From the NCBI GenBank assembly GCA_017515325.1, contig JAFWGA010000002.1, positions 1 through 39,523 on the forward strand: a stretch of 39,523 nucleotides of DNA, given 5' to 3'. Below, piece after piece: positions 23,607-31,587 of the stretch; positions within the stretch are counted from its first letter, which is position 1, and each line of letters opens with the position of its first letter. Source of the stretch: Blautia sp. (GTDB lineage: Bacteria > Bacillota > Clostridia > Lachnospirales > Lachnospiraceae). Position numbers and translations under genes: made by a program. Below the pieces are notes generated by a model, which did no database searches, was not told the DNA's origin, and worked only from the letters and a program-made list of their open reading frames with translations.

Positions 23607-23709
23607 AAAAATACCCCACTACGATTCCGAATCTGGAACCAACTGTAAAATCGACAATTCCTTTATCATTTTTTAGTATATATGATTCTACTGCAAAAAT
23701 GATTCCTCC

Positions 23710-23741
23710 GGATTGTTCCGCGCTTCGCGCTCCCACAATCC
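23710..23741. repeat. nested intergenic hairpin
   Basis: GGATTGT and ACAATCC enclose GCGC-TTC-GCGC. It lies in the 311-base gap between guanine deaminase and the acyl-AMP ligase and has no T-tract. The rest of the gap holds the terminator at 23791-23826, a TATACT -10 candidate for guanine deaminase (near 23678) without a good -35, and no gene. Confidence 0.5.
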
Positions 23742-23790
23742 TCCCCAATATTCGCATTCCATGGGATCCCTGCCCAATAGGGTAGAGGGG

Positions 23791-23826
23791 ATAGAAAAGC
23801 GGGTCAGACATAGTCGTCTGACCCGC
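23791..23826 (-). terminator. terminator of the condensation-ACP-ligase operon
   Basis: On the minus strand GCGGGTCAGAC pairs perfectly with GTCTGACCCGC around a 6-base loop and is followed by TTTTC. It sits 92 bases after the ligase stop and defines the operon's end. Confidence 0.8.
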
Positions 23827-23917
23827 CTTACAAACCTCGAACTGCAAATTGGAAGTTGTTGTTGTCATTGGGCCGGCTCAGATAGGAAAGCGCCACAATG
23901 GCTCTTTCCCAAGCTGC

Positions 23918-25447
23918 TTACTCGTCAACTTCGGCATGTCTGCGTACGATTTTACCGGTTGCGTTGCGGATAAAGGGATTCTGCCGAACCACAAGCCCTG
24001 TGAGCTGGCGATAAGTCGGCTGGTTCTTGTTATAGCTATCCAGCACTTCCTGAAGCGCTGCCTTTACCATGTCAGCGCTCAAACCCTTGACCTGTATCAC
24101 ATCCTGATCCGGATAGATCCGTGCGGTCAGTCCGTTGCTTTCTCCGGTAACGATCACTTCTCTCACAAGTGGATTGAGGGCAATCTTATTCTCGATTTCT
24201 TCCGGTGAAACGTTCTCTCCGTTAGACAGAATGATCAGATTCTTCACACGGCCATTGATAAAGAGAAAGCCGTCCTCATCGAGATATCCCTTGTCCCCGG
24301 TGTGCAGCCAGCCGTCCTTCAGCGTCTCAGCTGTCTCCTCCGGCATTTTGTAATAGCATTTCATGACACTGCTGCCACGGACAAGTATTTCTCCATCCTC
24401 GCTGATCCTGACTTCCGCATTGGGAAGCGGCTTGCCGATTGAACCGGCCTTATGGTTTTCCGGCATATTGTTGCTGATAACCGGAGAACACTCCGACATA
24501 CCGTAGCCTTCCAGGACACTCACGCCATAGGCTTCCAGCTTCTCAATATAGAAGGGATCCAGATGAGCCCCGCCCGTAAAGATGATCTTCAGATTCCCTC
24601 CGAAAACCTTCTCGGCCAGTACCTGGGGAGGGATACTTGGGTCTGCCGCAGCCAGTCTTTTATAGAGGATTTCGATCATCATCGGAACCATAAGCATGAC
24701 GTCAGGCTTGAAGATACTCATGTTCCGGACCATATGGATAAAGGAATCATTAATACACAATACCGAACCCAGGGAAAAGCCCTTCAGCCAGTCCATGACC
24801 AGGCAGAAAGCATGATGCACCGGAAGTACGCTCAGAAGTACCGTTCCCGGATCAGTTGTATAGGGTACGGATACCACATTGTTGGCCATGTTGGCCTGGG
24901 TAAGCATGACTCCTTTGCTTTTCCCCGTTGTTCCTGACGTGTAGATAATGGTGGCGATGTCATCCGGGCCGGAGGCGGCAATGCCTGTTTCCGAAGGAGC
25001 TGACTGCTTTAGGGTGGTGATTGTGTCTGCCTGATCCGATGCTTCCTCCTGGAGAATCCATATTTCCCGGATCTTGTGGCATTTCTCACGAACCAAGGGG
25101 AGCAGTGCCATCCCTTTCGGGCTCAGGAAAAGTGCCTGGGCATCGGCCCGATCCAAAAGCTCCAGCAAATCCTCTGCGGGAAGTCCGGCGTCCAGAGGAA
25201 CTGCTACATTATCCCCCGTCGTGATTCCCAAATAAGCGGTGATCCAGCTGATAGAAGCCGTTCCGATTAAGGCGATATGGGCTCCGTGAAATCCGGCTGC
25301 GGCCAGACCCTTTCGAACGGCGATAATGTCGTCTCCCAGCTCTTGATAACTGCGCTCTTTGACAGTCTTGCCTTCCAGCCAGCGTACAGCCGGAAGTTCT
25401 TTATAGCGCTGCAAGGACTCTTCCCAAATTCTCCCGATTGTGTTCAT
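23918..25447 (-). CDS. stand-alone acyl-AMP ligase (acyl-ACP/acyl-CoA synthetase family)
   Basis: This 509-residue ANL-family enzyme activates a carboxylic acid with ATP and probably loads it on the neighbouring carrier protein. Core motifs are intact: TSGTTGKSKG (170-179), EGYGMSECSP, HTGDKGYLDEDG, GRVKNLIILSNGENVSP and the C-terminal lysine (Lys499) in NATGK. The overall form is like long-chain fatty acid CoA ligases and fatty acyl-AMP ligases rather than amino-acid A domains. Its ATG lies one base after the stop of the carrier gene, so the two are translationally linked. The acid substrate cannot be read from the sequence. Confidence 0.88.
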   Translation of the reverse strand: MNTIGRIWEESLQRYKELPAVRWLEGKTVKERSYQELGDDIIAVRKGLAAAGFHGAHIALIGTASISWITAYLGITTGDNVAVPLDAGLPAEDLLELLDRADAQALFLSPKGMALLPLVREKCHKIREIWILQEEASDQADTITTLKQSAPSETGIAASGPDDIATIIYTSGTTGKSKGVMLTQANMANNVVSVPYTTDPGTVLLSVLPVHHAFCLVMDWLKGFSLGSVLCINDSFIHMVRNMSIFKPDVMLMVPMMIEILYKRLAAADPSIPPQVLAEKVFGGNLKIIFTGGAHLDPFYIEKLEAYGVSVLEGYGMSECSPVISNNMPENHKAGSIGKPLPNAEVRISEDGEILVRGSSVMKCYYKMPEETAETLKDGWLHTGDKGYLDEDGFLFINGRVKNLIILSNGENVSPEEIENKIALNPLVREVIVTGESNGLTARIYPDQDVIQVKGLSADMVKAALQEVLDSYNKNQPTYRQLTGLVVRQNPFIRNATGKIVRRHAEVDE

Positions 25448-25448
25448 C

Positions 25449-25685
25449 CTATTCTCCCTTAATCGTTTCCAGCATTTCCAATGCTTCTCCTACCGTATGA
25501 ACCTCTAAGACTTTGTCCTGATCCAGTTCTACGTCCAATAAGTCCTCAAGCTCTCCCAGAAAGGTCATAAAGCTCAGGGAAGTAAAACCCAGATCATCAC
25601 GAAAACGCATATCGTCCGTAATGTCTTCCGCTGCCACATCACAATACTGTGAAACAAGTTCCTTGAATTCATCTACCTTTGCCAT
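25449..25685 (-). CDS. discrete acyl/peptidyl carrier protein
   Basis: This 78-residue acidic four-helix carrier has the phosphopantetheine site at Ser36 in LGFTSLSF, a variant of the usual DSL motif. It differs from primary-metabolism ACPs (which keep DSLD), so it is dedicated to this operon. AAGGAGG sits just before the ATG. It lies between the condensation enzyme and the ligase, 25 bases from the former and one base from the latter. No 4'-phosphopantetheinyl transferase is in the window. Confidence 0.9.
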   Translation of the reverse strand: MAKVDEFKELVSQYCDVAAEDITDDMRFRDDLGFTSLSFMTFLGELEDLLDVELDQDKVLEVHTVGEALEMLETIKGE

Positions 25686-25710
25686 TTTTCTGCCTCCTTT
25701 TTTTATGCCG

Positions 25711-27096
25711 TTATACCTGTGCCATAATCTCTCCGATCGTCAGATCGGGTTCTGAGATCCCCTTGAAAAGGACTCTCATCATGTAGTAGTAAAGCAATTC
25801 CATATCCTTTTCCGTTAAATGGGCTGTCTGGTAATGATAAGAAAAGTTCATGCCCTGATCTCTCGTAAAGGAAACCGTAAGATACATCTTCTTTGTTGCT
25901 GCTCCGTTGGAATACCATTTTGAAAACATCTGCATATTTTCCAGGACAGGATTGTCCACACGAACAGGCATGGGCTGATATGTCAGATAACAGCTTGCAT
26001 AAGTCGTATTTTCCGGTGTATGGTATCGTTTTCTGATCTCTTCATAGATCAGGGCAGGATCATAATTGCTATGCATGTAAATCTTGTTCTGGATGTTCTG
26101 TATCTCATAGGCTGCCGAGAGAAAGTCTGTGTCAGGGCTGATCACGGTACGGCAGGGGAACATAATCGTGCGGCTTCCTCCGGATGTCCATTCTTTATGG
26201 GTGGATCTTCTGGAGATAAAGTTCTCGATGGTGATATCCTCCTGGCCATTGTTGACCTTGGAGAGATAGGTACGGATCCCCAGGAGCAGAAGGTTTGTCA
26301 TGGACAATTGATGGTTCATGCAAAAAGCGATCAGTCCCCTCGTCGGTTCCGGCTCCAGCACATAATCCTTTACCTTGACAAAAAGGTCATCCAACTCGAT
26401 ATCTGCCGCCCTGAGAGATGGGTCATTGTGCTTCTTTCTGGCTTCCTCCAAAACGGACGAACCTTTGATATCGGAATAAAGTGGTTCTCCCCGTAAGTCG
26501 AGCTGGTCGTCCCAGAATTTCTTATCCTTGGCAAACCGTTTTTCATTGGCTGCCTTTTTCAGGTCGTCCTCCAGAACCTCTTCAAAATCTGCGAGATCTG
26601 CAGGATAGTCTGACCCAAAGCGAAAATGGGTATAGAGCTGCATCAGGTCATTCACCAGCACTACCAGGCCACAGGAATCAATGAGTCTGTGATCCATATG
26701 AATGAAGAAGCCATTGAAGCCTTCCGGCAGCTTCAGCATGGTAATGTCACACATGGGGCGGTCGTCCCCATCCATAGTCACATAAGCCCATTGCTGCATC
26801 AGGTGATCCGCTTCGGCCAGAGTCATGCCGGAAAGATCCTTTAAGGGGATATCACGGGGATCAGACCCGGCAATGTATTGTTTGATGTTTCCTTCTTCAT
26901 CGGGTTTCGTAAAGCGAAGTCTTAGACATCCATAGCGTTCCGTCTCCAACTGAATGCATTTTTTCAACAGTCCAAAATCAAGCTCTGCCTTCAGAGATGC
27001 GACAATACTCACACCGGAAACCTGTTGTGTGTGATACTGTTTGATCCATTTGTAATGCATGTTCTGTGCCGCGGTAAGCGGGTACTCTTTTCTCAT
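25711..27096 (-). CDS. free-standing NRPS-type condensation domain protein
   Basis: This 461-residue protein has the chloramphenicol-acetyltransferase-like double fold of condensation domains: PLTAAQNMHY (6-15) is the C1 motif, and FFIHMDHRLIDSCG (130-143) is the C3 motif. There the canonical HHxxxDG reads D135-H136-RLI-D140-S. The catalytic second His and the Asp are kept; the first His and final Gly are replaced. The length fits a single C domain with no fused modules. It would join the carrier-bound acyl group to a free amine or alcohol. First gene of the operon, with a long leader (about 290 bases) from its promoter. Alcohol O-acyltransferase relatives (WES/PapA type) are the main alternative. 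Confidence 0.85.
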   Translation of the reverse strand: MRKEYPLTAAQNMHYKWIKQYHTQQVSGVSIVASLKAELDFGLLKKCIQLETERYGCLRLRFTKPDEEGNIKQYIAGSDPRDIPLKDLSGMTLAEADHLMQQWAYVTMDGDDRPMCDITMLKLPEGFNGFFIHMDHRLIDSCGLVVLVNDLMQLYTHFRFGSDYPADLADFEEVLEDDLKKAANEKRFAKDKKFWDDQLDLRGEPLYSDIKGSSVLEEARKKHNDPSLRAADIELDDLFVKVKDYVLEPEPTRGLIAFCMNHQLSMTNLLLLGIRTYLSKVNNGQEDITIENFISRRSTHKEWTSGGSRTIMFPCRTVISPDTDFLSAAYEIQNIQNKIYMHSNYDPALIYEEIRKRYHTPENTTYASCYLTYQPMPVRVDNPVLENMQMFSKWYSNGAATKKMYLTVSFTRDQGMNFSYHYQTAHLTEKDMELLYYYMMRVLFKGISEPDLTIGEIMAQV

Positions 27097-27392
27097 GAAA
27101 ATCCTTTTACCCCTTTCTTTCTACGCTCACAATAGAGAAGGAGCCTTCCTATACAAAGCACATGTGACGCACCAGAATCCGTGTCCGTACTCGAAGGTTG
27201 GTTTTGTCTGCCGGAACGGATGGCCTGAATGGAGGTCCCTCGGATGTTACGCATCTTCTGCCCTGTCCGACAGAAGTGATGTGCAGCCCATCTGATTCAA
27301 AAAAATTCAAATTGTTGCAAAAAGTCCAAGAAAACATAGCTGAAACTACTTGGCAATCTGAGCTTTATCGTAGCATATTTTTATCATATCAT

Positions 27393-27422
27393 ATTATAAA
27401 TAAAATATCTATATTCCGGCAA
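27393..27422 (-). promoter_or_regulatory. promoter of the condensation-ACP-ligase operon
   Basis: The minus strand reads TTGCCG, 18 bases, TATAAT. The implied leader (27097-27386) has a small hairpin (CTTCTG/CAGAAG near 27253-27274) and several weak stems but no riboswitch or T-box motif I can recognise. Open frames within it lack ribosome sites. Confidence 0.5.
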
Positions 27423-27467
27423 AGAGTTTTTAGGAGTTTTTACCAAATCGATGGGTAAAGCTGTGTG

Positions 27468-27496
27468 TTGAAAACCATGAAGACATATGATATAGT
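27468..27496 (+). promoter_or_regulatory. promoter of the AIG1-like membrane protein gene
   Basis: TTGAAA, 17 bases, TATAGT. It lies back to back with the minus-strand promoter, the two -35 elements only 45 bases apart, so both units may be co-regulated. Downstream a direct repeat (CGAATTTC at 27504 and 27527) could be a regulator site. Confidence 0.6.
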
Positions 27497-27610
27497 AGGC
27501 GCACGAATTTCGCTTCTATCATCTTCGCGAATTTCTATAAAAAACTATGTATCCTGAAAAAGGAAACTGATTGGCAGATCAAAATCTGTGTCCTAAAAGG
27601 AGATTCCTTT

Positions 27611-28255
27611 ATGAAAGAAATGTTAATCACTGCCGGATATATTTCCATTGCCATAATGGCATTCGCTTCCTGGTTAATCATGTTTTCCGGGCTTGATCCA
27701 TCTACCGCTTTATCCTCCAAGGGTGTCAGGGCTTTGAGATATTTTACCGTTGACTCCAACCTGCTTATGGGAGTGTCTGCTCTCTTGTGCCTTTTTTCCA
27801 AATCCTTCGGCACAAAAGTACTGTTGCTGGCGGGGACAACTGCAGTTTCATTAACCTTTTTTACTGTTCTGTGTTTTCTGGGACCGGTCCTGGGCTTTGA
27901 CAAAATGTATTCCGGCTCAAATCTATACATGCATCTGATTATTCCGGTCCTTGCTGTCACCATGCAGATTGTGTCCCAGAACTGCACCGGTCTTTCTTTC
28001 CCGGTCATCTGCTGGGCTCTGCTGCCCACTCTGGTATATGCTTTGTTCTATCTGAGGAATATTTTGAAAAAGGGGCCGGAATATGACTGGTACTGCCTGA
28101 CCAAAGGGGGGCCGAAAACGTATCTGCCTGTTATTGTCTGCTTTATGCTGGCCACTTTCCTGATCGCTTCCTGTTTATGGATGGCATCCGGCGGCAGCTC
28201 GATGCAGATGCGTATCCTGTCTTTTTCCCTCTATCGGTCTCTTTTTCCCGGTTAA
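27611..28255 (+). CDS. six-helix membrane protein, Pr6Pr / FAR-17a/AIG1-like
   Basis: This 214-residue protein has six predicted helices (about 5-25, 43-62, 69-92, 106-124, 130-149, 171-192). RYFTVDSNLLM (43-53) and YMHLIIPVL (106-114) match the pattern of bacterial Pr6Pr proteins, distant relatives of eukaryotic AIG1/ADTRP. In AIG1/ADTRP a membrane Thr and His hydrolyse fatty-acid esters of hydroxy fatty acids; Thr46 and His108 are the equivalents here by position. AAAAGGAG precedes the ATG. It diverges from the condensation operon and may process or export its lipid product; that link is inference. Family call is from motif memory only. Confidence 0.6.
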   Translation: MKEMLITAGYISIAIMAFASWLIMFSGLDPSTALSSKGVRALRYFTVDSNLLMGVSALLCLFSKSFGTKVLLLAGTTAVSLTFFTVLCFLGPVLGFDKMYSGSNLYMHLIIPVLAVTMQIVSQNCTGLSFPVICWALLPTLVYALFYLRNILKKGPEYDWYCLTKGGPKTYLPVIVCFMLATFLIASCLWMASGGSSMQMRILSFSLYRSLFPG

Positions 28256-29103
28256 AGCACATTCCTTTGTCCGGAAACTGTGACGAGAAATTCCTTTATG
28301 GCCTCGGTTACCTGATCCAGATGATAATGATAGCAATGGTCATCTCCATGAATGAGAACCAGCTTTGCGTTCGCGTAACTTTTTGCCGTGTCTATCCCGT
28401 ACTTCACCGGTACCGTCTCATCCTCATCACCGTGAATGATCAGAACCGGTCCCTGGTACTTCGAGATAGCTTTATCCACAAAAATGCTCTGGGCAACCCG
28501 GATGTAATTTCCATTCAGCTCTGCCGGATCTTCATGGTTCATGACATGCAGAGTGTCCGGAACGTTTTCGGGATCAAACTTTACCTCAAATTGATTTCCC
28601 TGCCTGGCGTATTCAGGAATCATGACTGCAGGTGCAAGCGGAATAAGGGCTTTCAGAACATCTCGCTTGAGAGCGGCGGTGAGAATCACGGTCAGGCCGC
28701 CTTGTGAATGTCCGCAGAGAATCAAATCCGTCACAAAATCTAACCCCCTGGCATAATCCACCACCGCCAGTGCCTGTGTAACCCATTTATAAAGAGTGTG
28801 GTCTTTGAACAGACCATCGCTGTGGCCATGCCCATACATTTCCACCCGAAGCGCTGCAAAACCGGACTCGTTGACGGCTGCTGCAACAGCAGTGATGTGG
28901 GTCTCCTCCATATGGCCGGTATATCCGTGAATAATAATGACCAGAGGATATTTTTCAGCCGCTTCCTCAGGGAAATCCAGCTTTGCGTGAATCCTGAGTC
29001 CGTCTTCGACCAAATAGAATTCCTTATGTTTTTCGCTGTCACTGAGAACCTGGATATTTTCCGGCTCATTCCATTTACCCATATGATATTCAGCCTCCGT
29101 CAC
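28252..29103 (-). CDS. alpha/beta hydrolase, cinnamoyl/feruloyl esterase-like
   Basis: This 283-residue serine hydrolase shows the triad Ser133 (GHSQGG), Asp228 (GDEDETVP) and His256 (DDHCYH), an oxyanion HGYTGH (59-64) and an inserted lid region (about 155-210). The sequence around MYGHGHSDG, LDFVTDL and KFDPENVPD is strongly like Butyrivibrio/Lactobacillus cinnamoyl esterases that release ferulate or hydrolyse chlorogenate. No signal peptide, so cytoplasmic. Last gene of the operon, 9 bases after the nucleotidase-like gene. Its stop overlaps that of the convergent membrane protein gene. A role on acyl esters from the neighbouring lipid genes is possible. Confidence 0.88.
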   Translation of the reverse strand: MTEAEYHMGKWNEPENIQVLSDSEKHKEFYLVEDGLRIHAKLDFPEEAAEKYPLVIIIHGYTGHMEETHITAVAAAVNESGFAALRVEMYGHGHSDGLFKDHTLYKWVTQALAVVDYARGLDFVTDLILCGHSQGGLTVILTAALKRDVLKALIPLAPAVMIPEYARQGNQFEVKFDPENVPDTLHVMNHEDPAELNGNYIRVAQSIFVDKAISKYQGPVLIIHGDEDETVPVKYGIDTAKSYANAKLVLIHGDDHCYHYHLDQVTEAIKEFLVTVSGQRNVL

Positions 29104-30828: not shown

Positions 30829-31587
30829 TCAAAATAAAAAATCAGAAAAAACCAGCTCTACAACAGCATAGGCATCTGCTTCCCACTCCGGTTTTATCTG
30901 AAAAAGAACATATTGTCTGTCCGGCAGATTCAGGATGAAAGGATAAAAGGTATCCCCCAAAAGAGCCTGATGCATATATTCTACTCTGAGCTGGGACACA
31001 GTCCGGCCTGCCGGCAGGTAGTCCATTGCCATTCTGACATACTGACAGTTATTGACATGCCTATGAGAATCCAGATGATGATGCTGAATCTGGAAGGGGT
31101 CGCCTTTTTCCGGCTCCGGAAGAATATTTTGATTTATCCCGCTTTCGGGAAGCCTGATCCTTCTGGGTGCGAAATCCCATTGCAAGGGTGTGCCCAGCTC
31201 GTACCCTCTGGTGTCCTCCTCCGTTAGCCTCACGGGCATTCCTGTCTGGGTGTTGATATTGGCCCAGTGAGAATTTGCCCAGGCCAGCCTTTCTCCCGTC
31301 GGCGTCTGCATGATAAAATTCCTCAGGCCCATACATCCTTTAAACTGGTATGGAATAGTCTGAGTAAGAATCTCTTCTCCCAGGGAAGGATATCTTTGAA
31401 CCACCACATGCCAGGCTCCCAACACCCAGGCTCGGTTCCTTTGCCGTAAATGTAACATACCCTGGTTTATGCTCTCTGACTGAAAGGTACAGGTATCCTG
31501 AAAATAATCCAAAATCCCCGGCAATGTAAGGCAGCCATTTTCTCCTGTCTCACTGTATCGTACCCTGCTGCTGAACGAATAACCCAT
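30829..31587 (-). CDS. acyl-ACP thioesterase
   Basis: This 252-residue double-hotdog protein belongs to the bacterial FatA/FatB-like family that releases free fatty acids from acyl-ACP. The second hotdog carries HHHLDSHRHVNNCQYV (169-184), with Asp173, His175/His177 and Asn179 in the catalytic pattern. The N-terminal hotdog includes TLPGILDYFQDTCTFQSE. It is the first gene of a four-gene minus-strand operon. The start codon has only a weak ribosome site. Released fatty acids could feed the acyl-AMP ligase encoded 5 kb away; this is inference. Confidence 0.9.
   Translation of the reverse strand: MGYSFSSRVRYSETGENGCLTLPGILDYFQDTCTFQSESINQGMLHLRQRNRAWVLGAWHVVVQRYPSLGEEILTQTIPYQFKGCMGLRNFIMQTPTGERLAWANSHWANINTQTGMPVRLTEEDTRGYELGTPLQWDFAPRRIRLPESGINQNILPEPEKGDPFQIQHHHLDSHRHVNNCQYVRMAMDYLPAGRTVSQLRVEYMHQALLGDTFYPFILNLPDRQYVLFQIKPEWEADAYAVVELVFSDFLF

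Follow-up and report, generated by a model that had tools for sequence, protein, structure and literature searches.

Discrete sets of a condensation protein (C), a carrier protein (T) and an adenylating ligase (A) in gut Clostridia have been reported to make lipoamides, that is, conjugates of fatty acids and amines. OaaC of Coprococcus eutactus (PDB 12KH) is the C protein of a C/acyl carrier protein/A system for oleoyl aminovaleric acid; it forms the amide of that pathway in vitro, is reported to be amine-selective, and represents a subgroup with aminovaleric acid as acceptor and a homodimer that hides the carrier site (main text of PMC13142362). For C proteins of fatty acid amide (FAA) systems as a whole, the main text of that paper gives the motif (D/H)HxxxDS, with Ser, Ala and Gly at the last place in 42%, 36% and 17% of sequences, respectively (n = 127). 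The same gene set has been named the CTA operon and found in 36 species, every one of them in the Lachnospiraceae; CTA-positive Blautia species and Coprococcus catus isolates had higher oleoyl, palmitoyl and linoleoyl ethanolamide than CTA-negative ones, and CTA-positive Blautia species given dopamine and oleic acid yielded oleoyl dopamine (main text of PMC13060934). Here we describe a C-T-A operon in a 39,523-nucleotide stretch of Blautia sp. DNA (contig JAFWGA010000002.1 of assembly GCA_017515325.1; 'the window'), and we consider it highly probable (roughly 0.9) that it is an FAA synthase operon of the CTA family, with C joining an acyl group to a free small amine.

A three-protein operon of the CTA family

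The C (25711-27096), T (25449-25685) and A (23918-25447) genes lie in that order on the minus strand, with intergenic gaps of 25 nt (C-T) and 1 nt (T-A), and the three-protein operon proposed from the letters of the DNA in an original prediction was borne out by Pfam domains, gene order and spacing. T stands between C and A and all three are discrete genes, which is the FAA/CTA layout. C is a stand-alone FAA-type condensation domain of 461 aa (PF00668 Condensation, 4.2e-32) with D-H-R-L-I-D-S (DHxxxDS) at the position of HHxxxDG in the C domains of modular nonribosomal peptide synthetases (NRPS). A fold search with its AlphaFold2 model (mean predicted local distance difference test score 92.7; 20-sequence alignment) matched NRPS C domains, the top match being the C1 domain of CDA synthetase (E 4e-29); 12KH was not among the 50 fold matches listed, from a library with entries to 8 April 2026. 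T (78 aa; PF00550 PP-binding, 1.2e-12) has the predicted phosphopantetheine residue, Ser36, where it had been placed, within DDLGFTSL, and its best NCBIfam models are acyl carrier proteins, all below cut-off. A (509 aa; PF00501 AMP-binding, 9e-63; AMP-binding_C_3) carries the motifs YTSGTTGKSKG, EGYGMSE, TGD and NATGK. Fatty-acid ligase models score best for it (long-chain-fatty-acid-CoA ligase PRK06187, 258 bits, below the cut-off of 476), ahead of the amino-acid adenylation model TIGR01733 (135 bits, below the cut-off of 317), in agreement with the earlier call of a fatty-acyl-type rather than an amino-acid ligase. Domain scans of the three genes revealed neither fused C/A/T modules nor a thioesterase domain; the predicted lack of a modular NRPS and a thioesterase thus holds within the operon, but the genome has two A-T-C NRPS genes elsewhere, and beyond the operon, 3.7 kb upstream of it, there is an acyl-carrier-protein thioesterase-like gene.

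Among PDB sequences, C matched 12KH far better than any other (2.8e-182 and 610 bits; the next, PvdL, reached 28 bits), with 54.5% identity to OaaC over 457 aa, and identities to the orthologous proteins of Blautia wexlerae MSK.20.46 were 76% (C), 56% (T) and 67% (A). The comparison with characterised gut lipoamide clusters that had been proposed as a check therefore leads, for C, to such clusters and not to a siderophore or primary-metabolism set, the outcome named beforehand as counting against the prediction; indeed, the discrete gut C/T/A sets that it cited are the very family that holds the window locus.

Homologues of C were found in 55 of the 397 genomes of the family (E <= 1e-20) and in 26 of the 64 genomes of the genus, which is that of B. 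wexlerae (E <= 1e-15; own genome included in both counts). Those in the genus comprised 13 close (76-100% identity, two of them fragments) and 13 distant (34-39%) proteins. As an orthologue set we used the best 80 loci of 514 relatives from a scan of genome contigs, to which all counts out of 80 refer. The DHxxxDS motif was present in all 80; 77 had a T match and 75 an A match (one of the latter, in L067, is a 60-residue piece at a contig end). C, T and A stood in this order in 75 loci, and in the remaining 5 the contig ends 34-764 nt behind C. The closest two among these best 80 loci belong to metagenome-assembled genomes of Lachnospiraceae (L035 and L036; 84-85%), named loci of the genus come from B. 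wexlerae MSK.20.46 (L106), Blautia sp. MSJ-9 (L104) and Blautia sp. RGIG5147 from sheep abomasum (L048), and ruminant gut is named as the source for 12 of the 80. A tree of 111 C proteins (built by a quick method, Shimodaira-Hasegawa-like approximate likelihood-ratio supports only, FAA-like rows only) places the window protein beside L035 and L036 (support 91), in a clade of 90 that includes B. wexlerae (support 99). Ratios of nonsynonymous to synonymous change (pN/pS) for C, T and A were 0.12-0.35 against L035, L036, L042, L048 and L106, with synonymous change mostly saturated. Because of these ratios and the shared gene order in 75 of the 80 loci, the operon is not a chance arrangement, and its three proteins are intact and evolve under purifying selection. 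Judged by its sequence, the locus belongs to the FAA/CTA operons of gut Clostridia, a known family, and is not new in kind.

The genomic neighbourhood in relatives and in the window

We next clustered the proteins of at least 100 aa that surround C in the 80 loci, leaving families in 12 or fewer loci without annotation, and only C, A, a TetR-family protein and an alpha/beta hydrolase recurred in more than 12. The TetR-family protein (PF00440 and PF14278 in two members scanned) occurs near C in 67 of the 80 loci, including 57 of the 60 with at least 1.2 kb of sequence behind A (exceptions, L048, L083 and L110), and in 61 of the 67 its gene is convergent with, and no more than 400 nt from, A. 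The hydrolase (PF12146 in two members scanned) occurs near C in 56 loci; among the 70 with at least 2 kb upstream it is present in 51 and missing from 19. It is encoded on the same strand, at most 600 nt upstream of C, in 49 of the 56, and carries a nucleophile-elbow-like motif, (L/I)(Y/F)G(E/Q)SMG, in 55. In the PDB, the L036 hydrolase comes closest to monoglyceride lipases (7.6e-9, a match of 57 residues) and to cinnamoyl esterases (3.5e-7), and because of these values 'lipase-like' is a weak name for it. For the L036 TetR protein, the best NCBIfam model is DhaS (33.8 bits against a cut-off of 129).

The relatives also share a block before C, roughly GGTCAATTTT-n7-TGTTCATTAAGTC-n4-GGGGTAGAAAT followed by an extended -10-like TGTGnTA, at 80-234 nt from the gene (63 loci measured, among L035-L114). 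A 51-column weight matrix built from 63 loci scored above a threshold of 15 in the leaders of 77 of the 80 loci and at only two further places in all 80, one of which, 435 nt before the C match of L080, is probably the leader of that locus. A matrix trained on half of the loci detected 38 of the remaining 40 and none of 200 shuffled leaders. Six loci (L043, L045, L055, L085, L090 and L101) have an extra TGTTyGATAwGTy-like copy 32-33 bp upstream of the block, a spacing as for a regulator that binds every three helical turns. We infer that the TetR protein binds this 51-bp element, where it might act as either a repressor or an activator; no hit above 15 was seen before the TetR or hydrolase gene in the 80 loci, and for that reason the data do not show autoregulation.

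The genus and family also contain a second FAA-like class, likewise with a stand-alone C and the order C-T-A; its C proteins (34-39% identical to that of the window) differ in having the motif xHxxxDA, not DHxxxDS, in 14 of 14 loci (L021-L034). In a sample of 7 loci (5 of the 13 in the genus, 2 from the family), a hydrolase with 30-36% identity to that of the first class directly precedes C in all 7, overlapping it by 4 nt in 6 and standing 1 nt apart in the other (first start codon taken). A small gene precedes the hydrolase in 6 of the 7, with an SCP2 domain (PF02036) in the three scanned, and a gene points away in 6 of the 7, TetR-family in the three scanned; the best NCBIfam name for the one TetR protein of this class compared with these models is a FadR (43 bits, cut-off 200). 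The 51-bp element was not found in the leaders of the 7 loci (best matrix score -10.5). Hydrolase plus C-T-A is common to both FAA classes. A third group of C proteins (L164-L166, the same genes as L018-L020; 37-42% identity; motif DHRIMDS) has no T or A match alongside in its three loci, pointing to a different partner set or a different job.

In the window, the 514-nt leader (27097-27610, minus strand), between C and a divergent membrane-protein gene, resembles none of the 80 orthologue leaders by nhmmer, and the 51-bp element is absent (the matrix reaches at best -21.2 there and -4.0 anywhere in the window). In the window, nothing matched the TetR protein or the partner hydrolase at 1e-5 apart from an alpha/beta hydrolase at 28252-29103, and no convincing orthologue of either was found elsewhere in the genome (assembly 87.7% complete; operon flanks present). 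A relocated TetR orthologue was rejected, the best own-genome matches being one of 24% and a fragment of 35%. Searched with the partner, the genome yielded only the hydrolase at 28252-29103 at E <= 1e-5 (26%, 3.6e-7); because its best PDB match is the esterase EST1E (2wtm, 4e-94), we treated it as an ordinary esterase and rejected it as the partner. Its gene and those for proteins of the 5'-nucleotidase C-terminal domain, NUDIX and acyl-carrier-protein thioesterase-like (30829-31587) types form a closely packed row, all on the minus strand. In a sample of 10 close in-genus loci, hydrolase, TetR gene and element are all present in 9, and none of them in the tenth, from the sheep Blautia (L150, the same as L048). 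The leaders of the window and of the sheep Blautia are dissimilar and the tree does not pair the two stripped operons, which suggests, on sequence grounds, two separate losses or transfers.

From these patterns we tentatively propose, with the odds somewhat against us, that C-T-A usually makes up just the second half of a regulated unit running from fat to amide. In its first half, a hydrolase resembling monoglyceride lipases, joined in the second class by an SCP2 lipid carrier, would free fatty acids and hand them over; C-T-A would make amides of them, and a dedicated TetR regulator at the 51-bp element would switch the whole unit on in response to fatty acid. The synthase of the window's species would have been cut loose from supplier and switch, as would, apparently independently, that of the sheep Blautia; if so, amides would be made there from scavenged fatty acids under different control.

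Directly behind A lies a match to the Clostridiales-1 RNA (23700-23846, minus strand; RF01699, 53.7 bits against a cut-off of 48), the 5' (first) hairpin of which, at 23796-23829 (minus strand; 14 pairs), had been taken for the operon's own terminator. The hairpin is real (strong fold, z = -3.3 in a 231-nt region; a simple terminator scan did not list it) and may end transcription of the operon, but it belongs to a copy of a dispersed element: the 3.3 Mb genome has 33 matches at E <= 1, 11 of them above the curated cut-off, so this RNA behaves as such an element rather than as a single small RNA gene. Further copies lie on contigs C45, C24, C34, C64, C40 and others. The RNA was rejected as a part of the system, with no match in the 8 orthologous loci searched (of 80). 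Foreign base composition was also dismissed (per-gene GC content 43.5-51.8% against 48.6% for the window, no clear contrast), as were a promoter of the operon (the region has 6 sigma-70-like sites and its shuffled versions 7.9 on average, which is no evidence for one) and plasmid carriage (two Bacillus matches only, at 21-22% identity). The two A-T-C NRPS genes are neighbours on contig C47 (6263-8950 and 9355-12489 of L169; 895 and 1044 aa), with an FHA-ABC transporter gene about 3 kb upstream of them.

Predicted amide synthesis and alternative readings

In the proposed mechanism, A would activate a free fatty acid with ATP and load it onto the phosphopantetheine arm of T, itself armed by one of the genome's phosphopantetheinyl transferases (two PF01648 proteins, one of 206 aa and one of at most 243 aa, both Sfp-like in size); C would then take over the acyl group carried by T and couple it to a small free amine, probably one from the surroundings, and a diffusible N-acyl amide would be released without a thioesterase. 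The product originally proposed, an N-acyl amide or ester of a fatty acid with a free amine or alcohol, finds support as an amide in the nearest characterised relatives, which make fatty acid amides, and in a C protein that is full-length like OaaC and carries DHxxxDS. The amine acceptor cannot be read from the sequence. Searches of the genome (87.7% complete) for PF00282, PF01276 and EutB all came back negative, which makes uptake of the amine probable; a search with PF09338 gave no match in any control genome and is uninformative on the amine source. Ethanolamine or another simple gut amine would be our guess, by analogy with B. wexlerae, and an exogenous amine, with a benefit as fatty-acid detoxification and/or signalling, is what we would expect.

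Several points weigh against the synthase reading. OaaC lies outside the clade of 90, and the amine of the window system therefore need not be aminovaleric acid. The main text of PMC13060934 assigns CTA status where C and A are at least 70% identical over 80% of their length to a catalogued set (Chang et al.), and the window A, at 67% to that of B. wexlerae, is just under this value. The B. wexlerae evidence in that text is a comparison of species and isolates with and without the operon; the amide chemistry and activity of the window copy rest on homology; no own source of the amine was found; and companions kept by most orthologues are absent in the window, so that published relatives may be an incomplete guide to its expression.

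The strongest alternative, that the operon mainly detoxifies free fatty acids, with abundant amines as an acyl sink and no particular signal intended, is compatible with the FAA synthase explanation rather than exclusive of it, and we place it a little short of an even chance. For B. wexlerae, the main text of PMC13060934 reports that free oleic acid was toxic, that several amines rescued growth and that the tested amides were non-toxic, whereas the amine selectivity reported for OaaC (main text of PMC13142362) speaks against this reading. The regulators speak on both sides: a TetR-family gene linked in 57 of 60 loci with enough flank would fit lipid-ligand control, and the distant-class protein has a FadR as its best name, though far below cut-off, but the DhaS match of the close-class protein does not point to fatty acids.

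Some C-domain relatives make esters, and the set might accordingly make an ester or acylate an alcohol or thiol; given the FAA-type motif and the full-length similarity to the amide-forming OaaC, we regard this as very unlikely. Least probable is that the three genes are left over from a larger lipopeptide NRPS cluster, or that they serve to load the products of the two A-T-C genes of this genome. Those genes exist but lie on another contig than the operon; around C, only C, A, the TetR protein and the hydrolase recur in more than 12 of the 80 loci (proteins of at least 100 aa); and purifying selection acts on three intact proteins.

Comparison with known systems

As a gut-bacterial route to lipids resembling host signals, FAA operons are of wider interest, and a link between the release of GLP-1 and acyl amines from B. 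wexlerae has been reported (abstract of PMC13060934). The words hydrolase, TetR, promoter and lipase were not found in the main text of PMC13142362 or PMC13060934, and a literature search, with the founding paper (Chang et al. 2021) and supplements outside its reach, found no published link of FAA operons with a TetR gene or hydrolase. What is new here is the larger conserved unit in relatives and its absence in the window, for which we claim no priority; the neighbourhood adds testable parts to the synthase: the partner hydrolase and the regulator, the promoter element and, in one class, SCP2.

Compared with OaaC and its carrier protein (OaaACP) and ligase (OaaA), the window has the same three free-standing proteins, including a fatty-acyl ligase and a carrier protein, and its C protein shares with OaaC the motif DHRLxDSCG and similarity over the full length; OaaC differs in branching outside the clade of the window and B. 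wexlerae, and its amine may differ. The B. wexlerae CTA operon has a hydrolase, a TetR gene and the promoter element, where the window is without all three, yet it belongs to the same genus, keeps the order C-T-A and encodes a C protein 76% identical to that of the window. The two loci thereby offer a natural comparison, within one genus, of operons with and without the switch.

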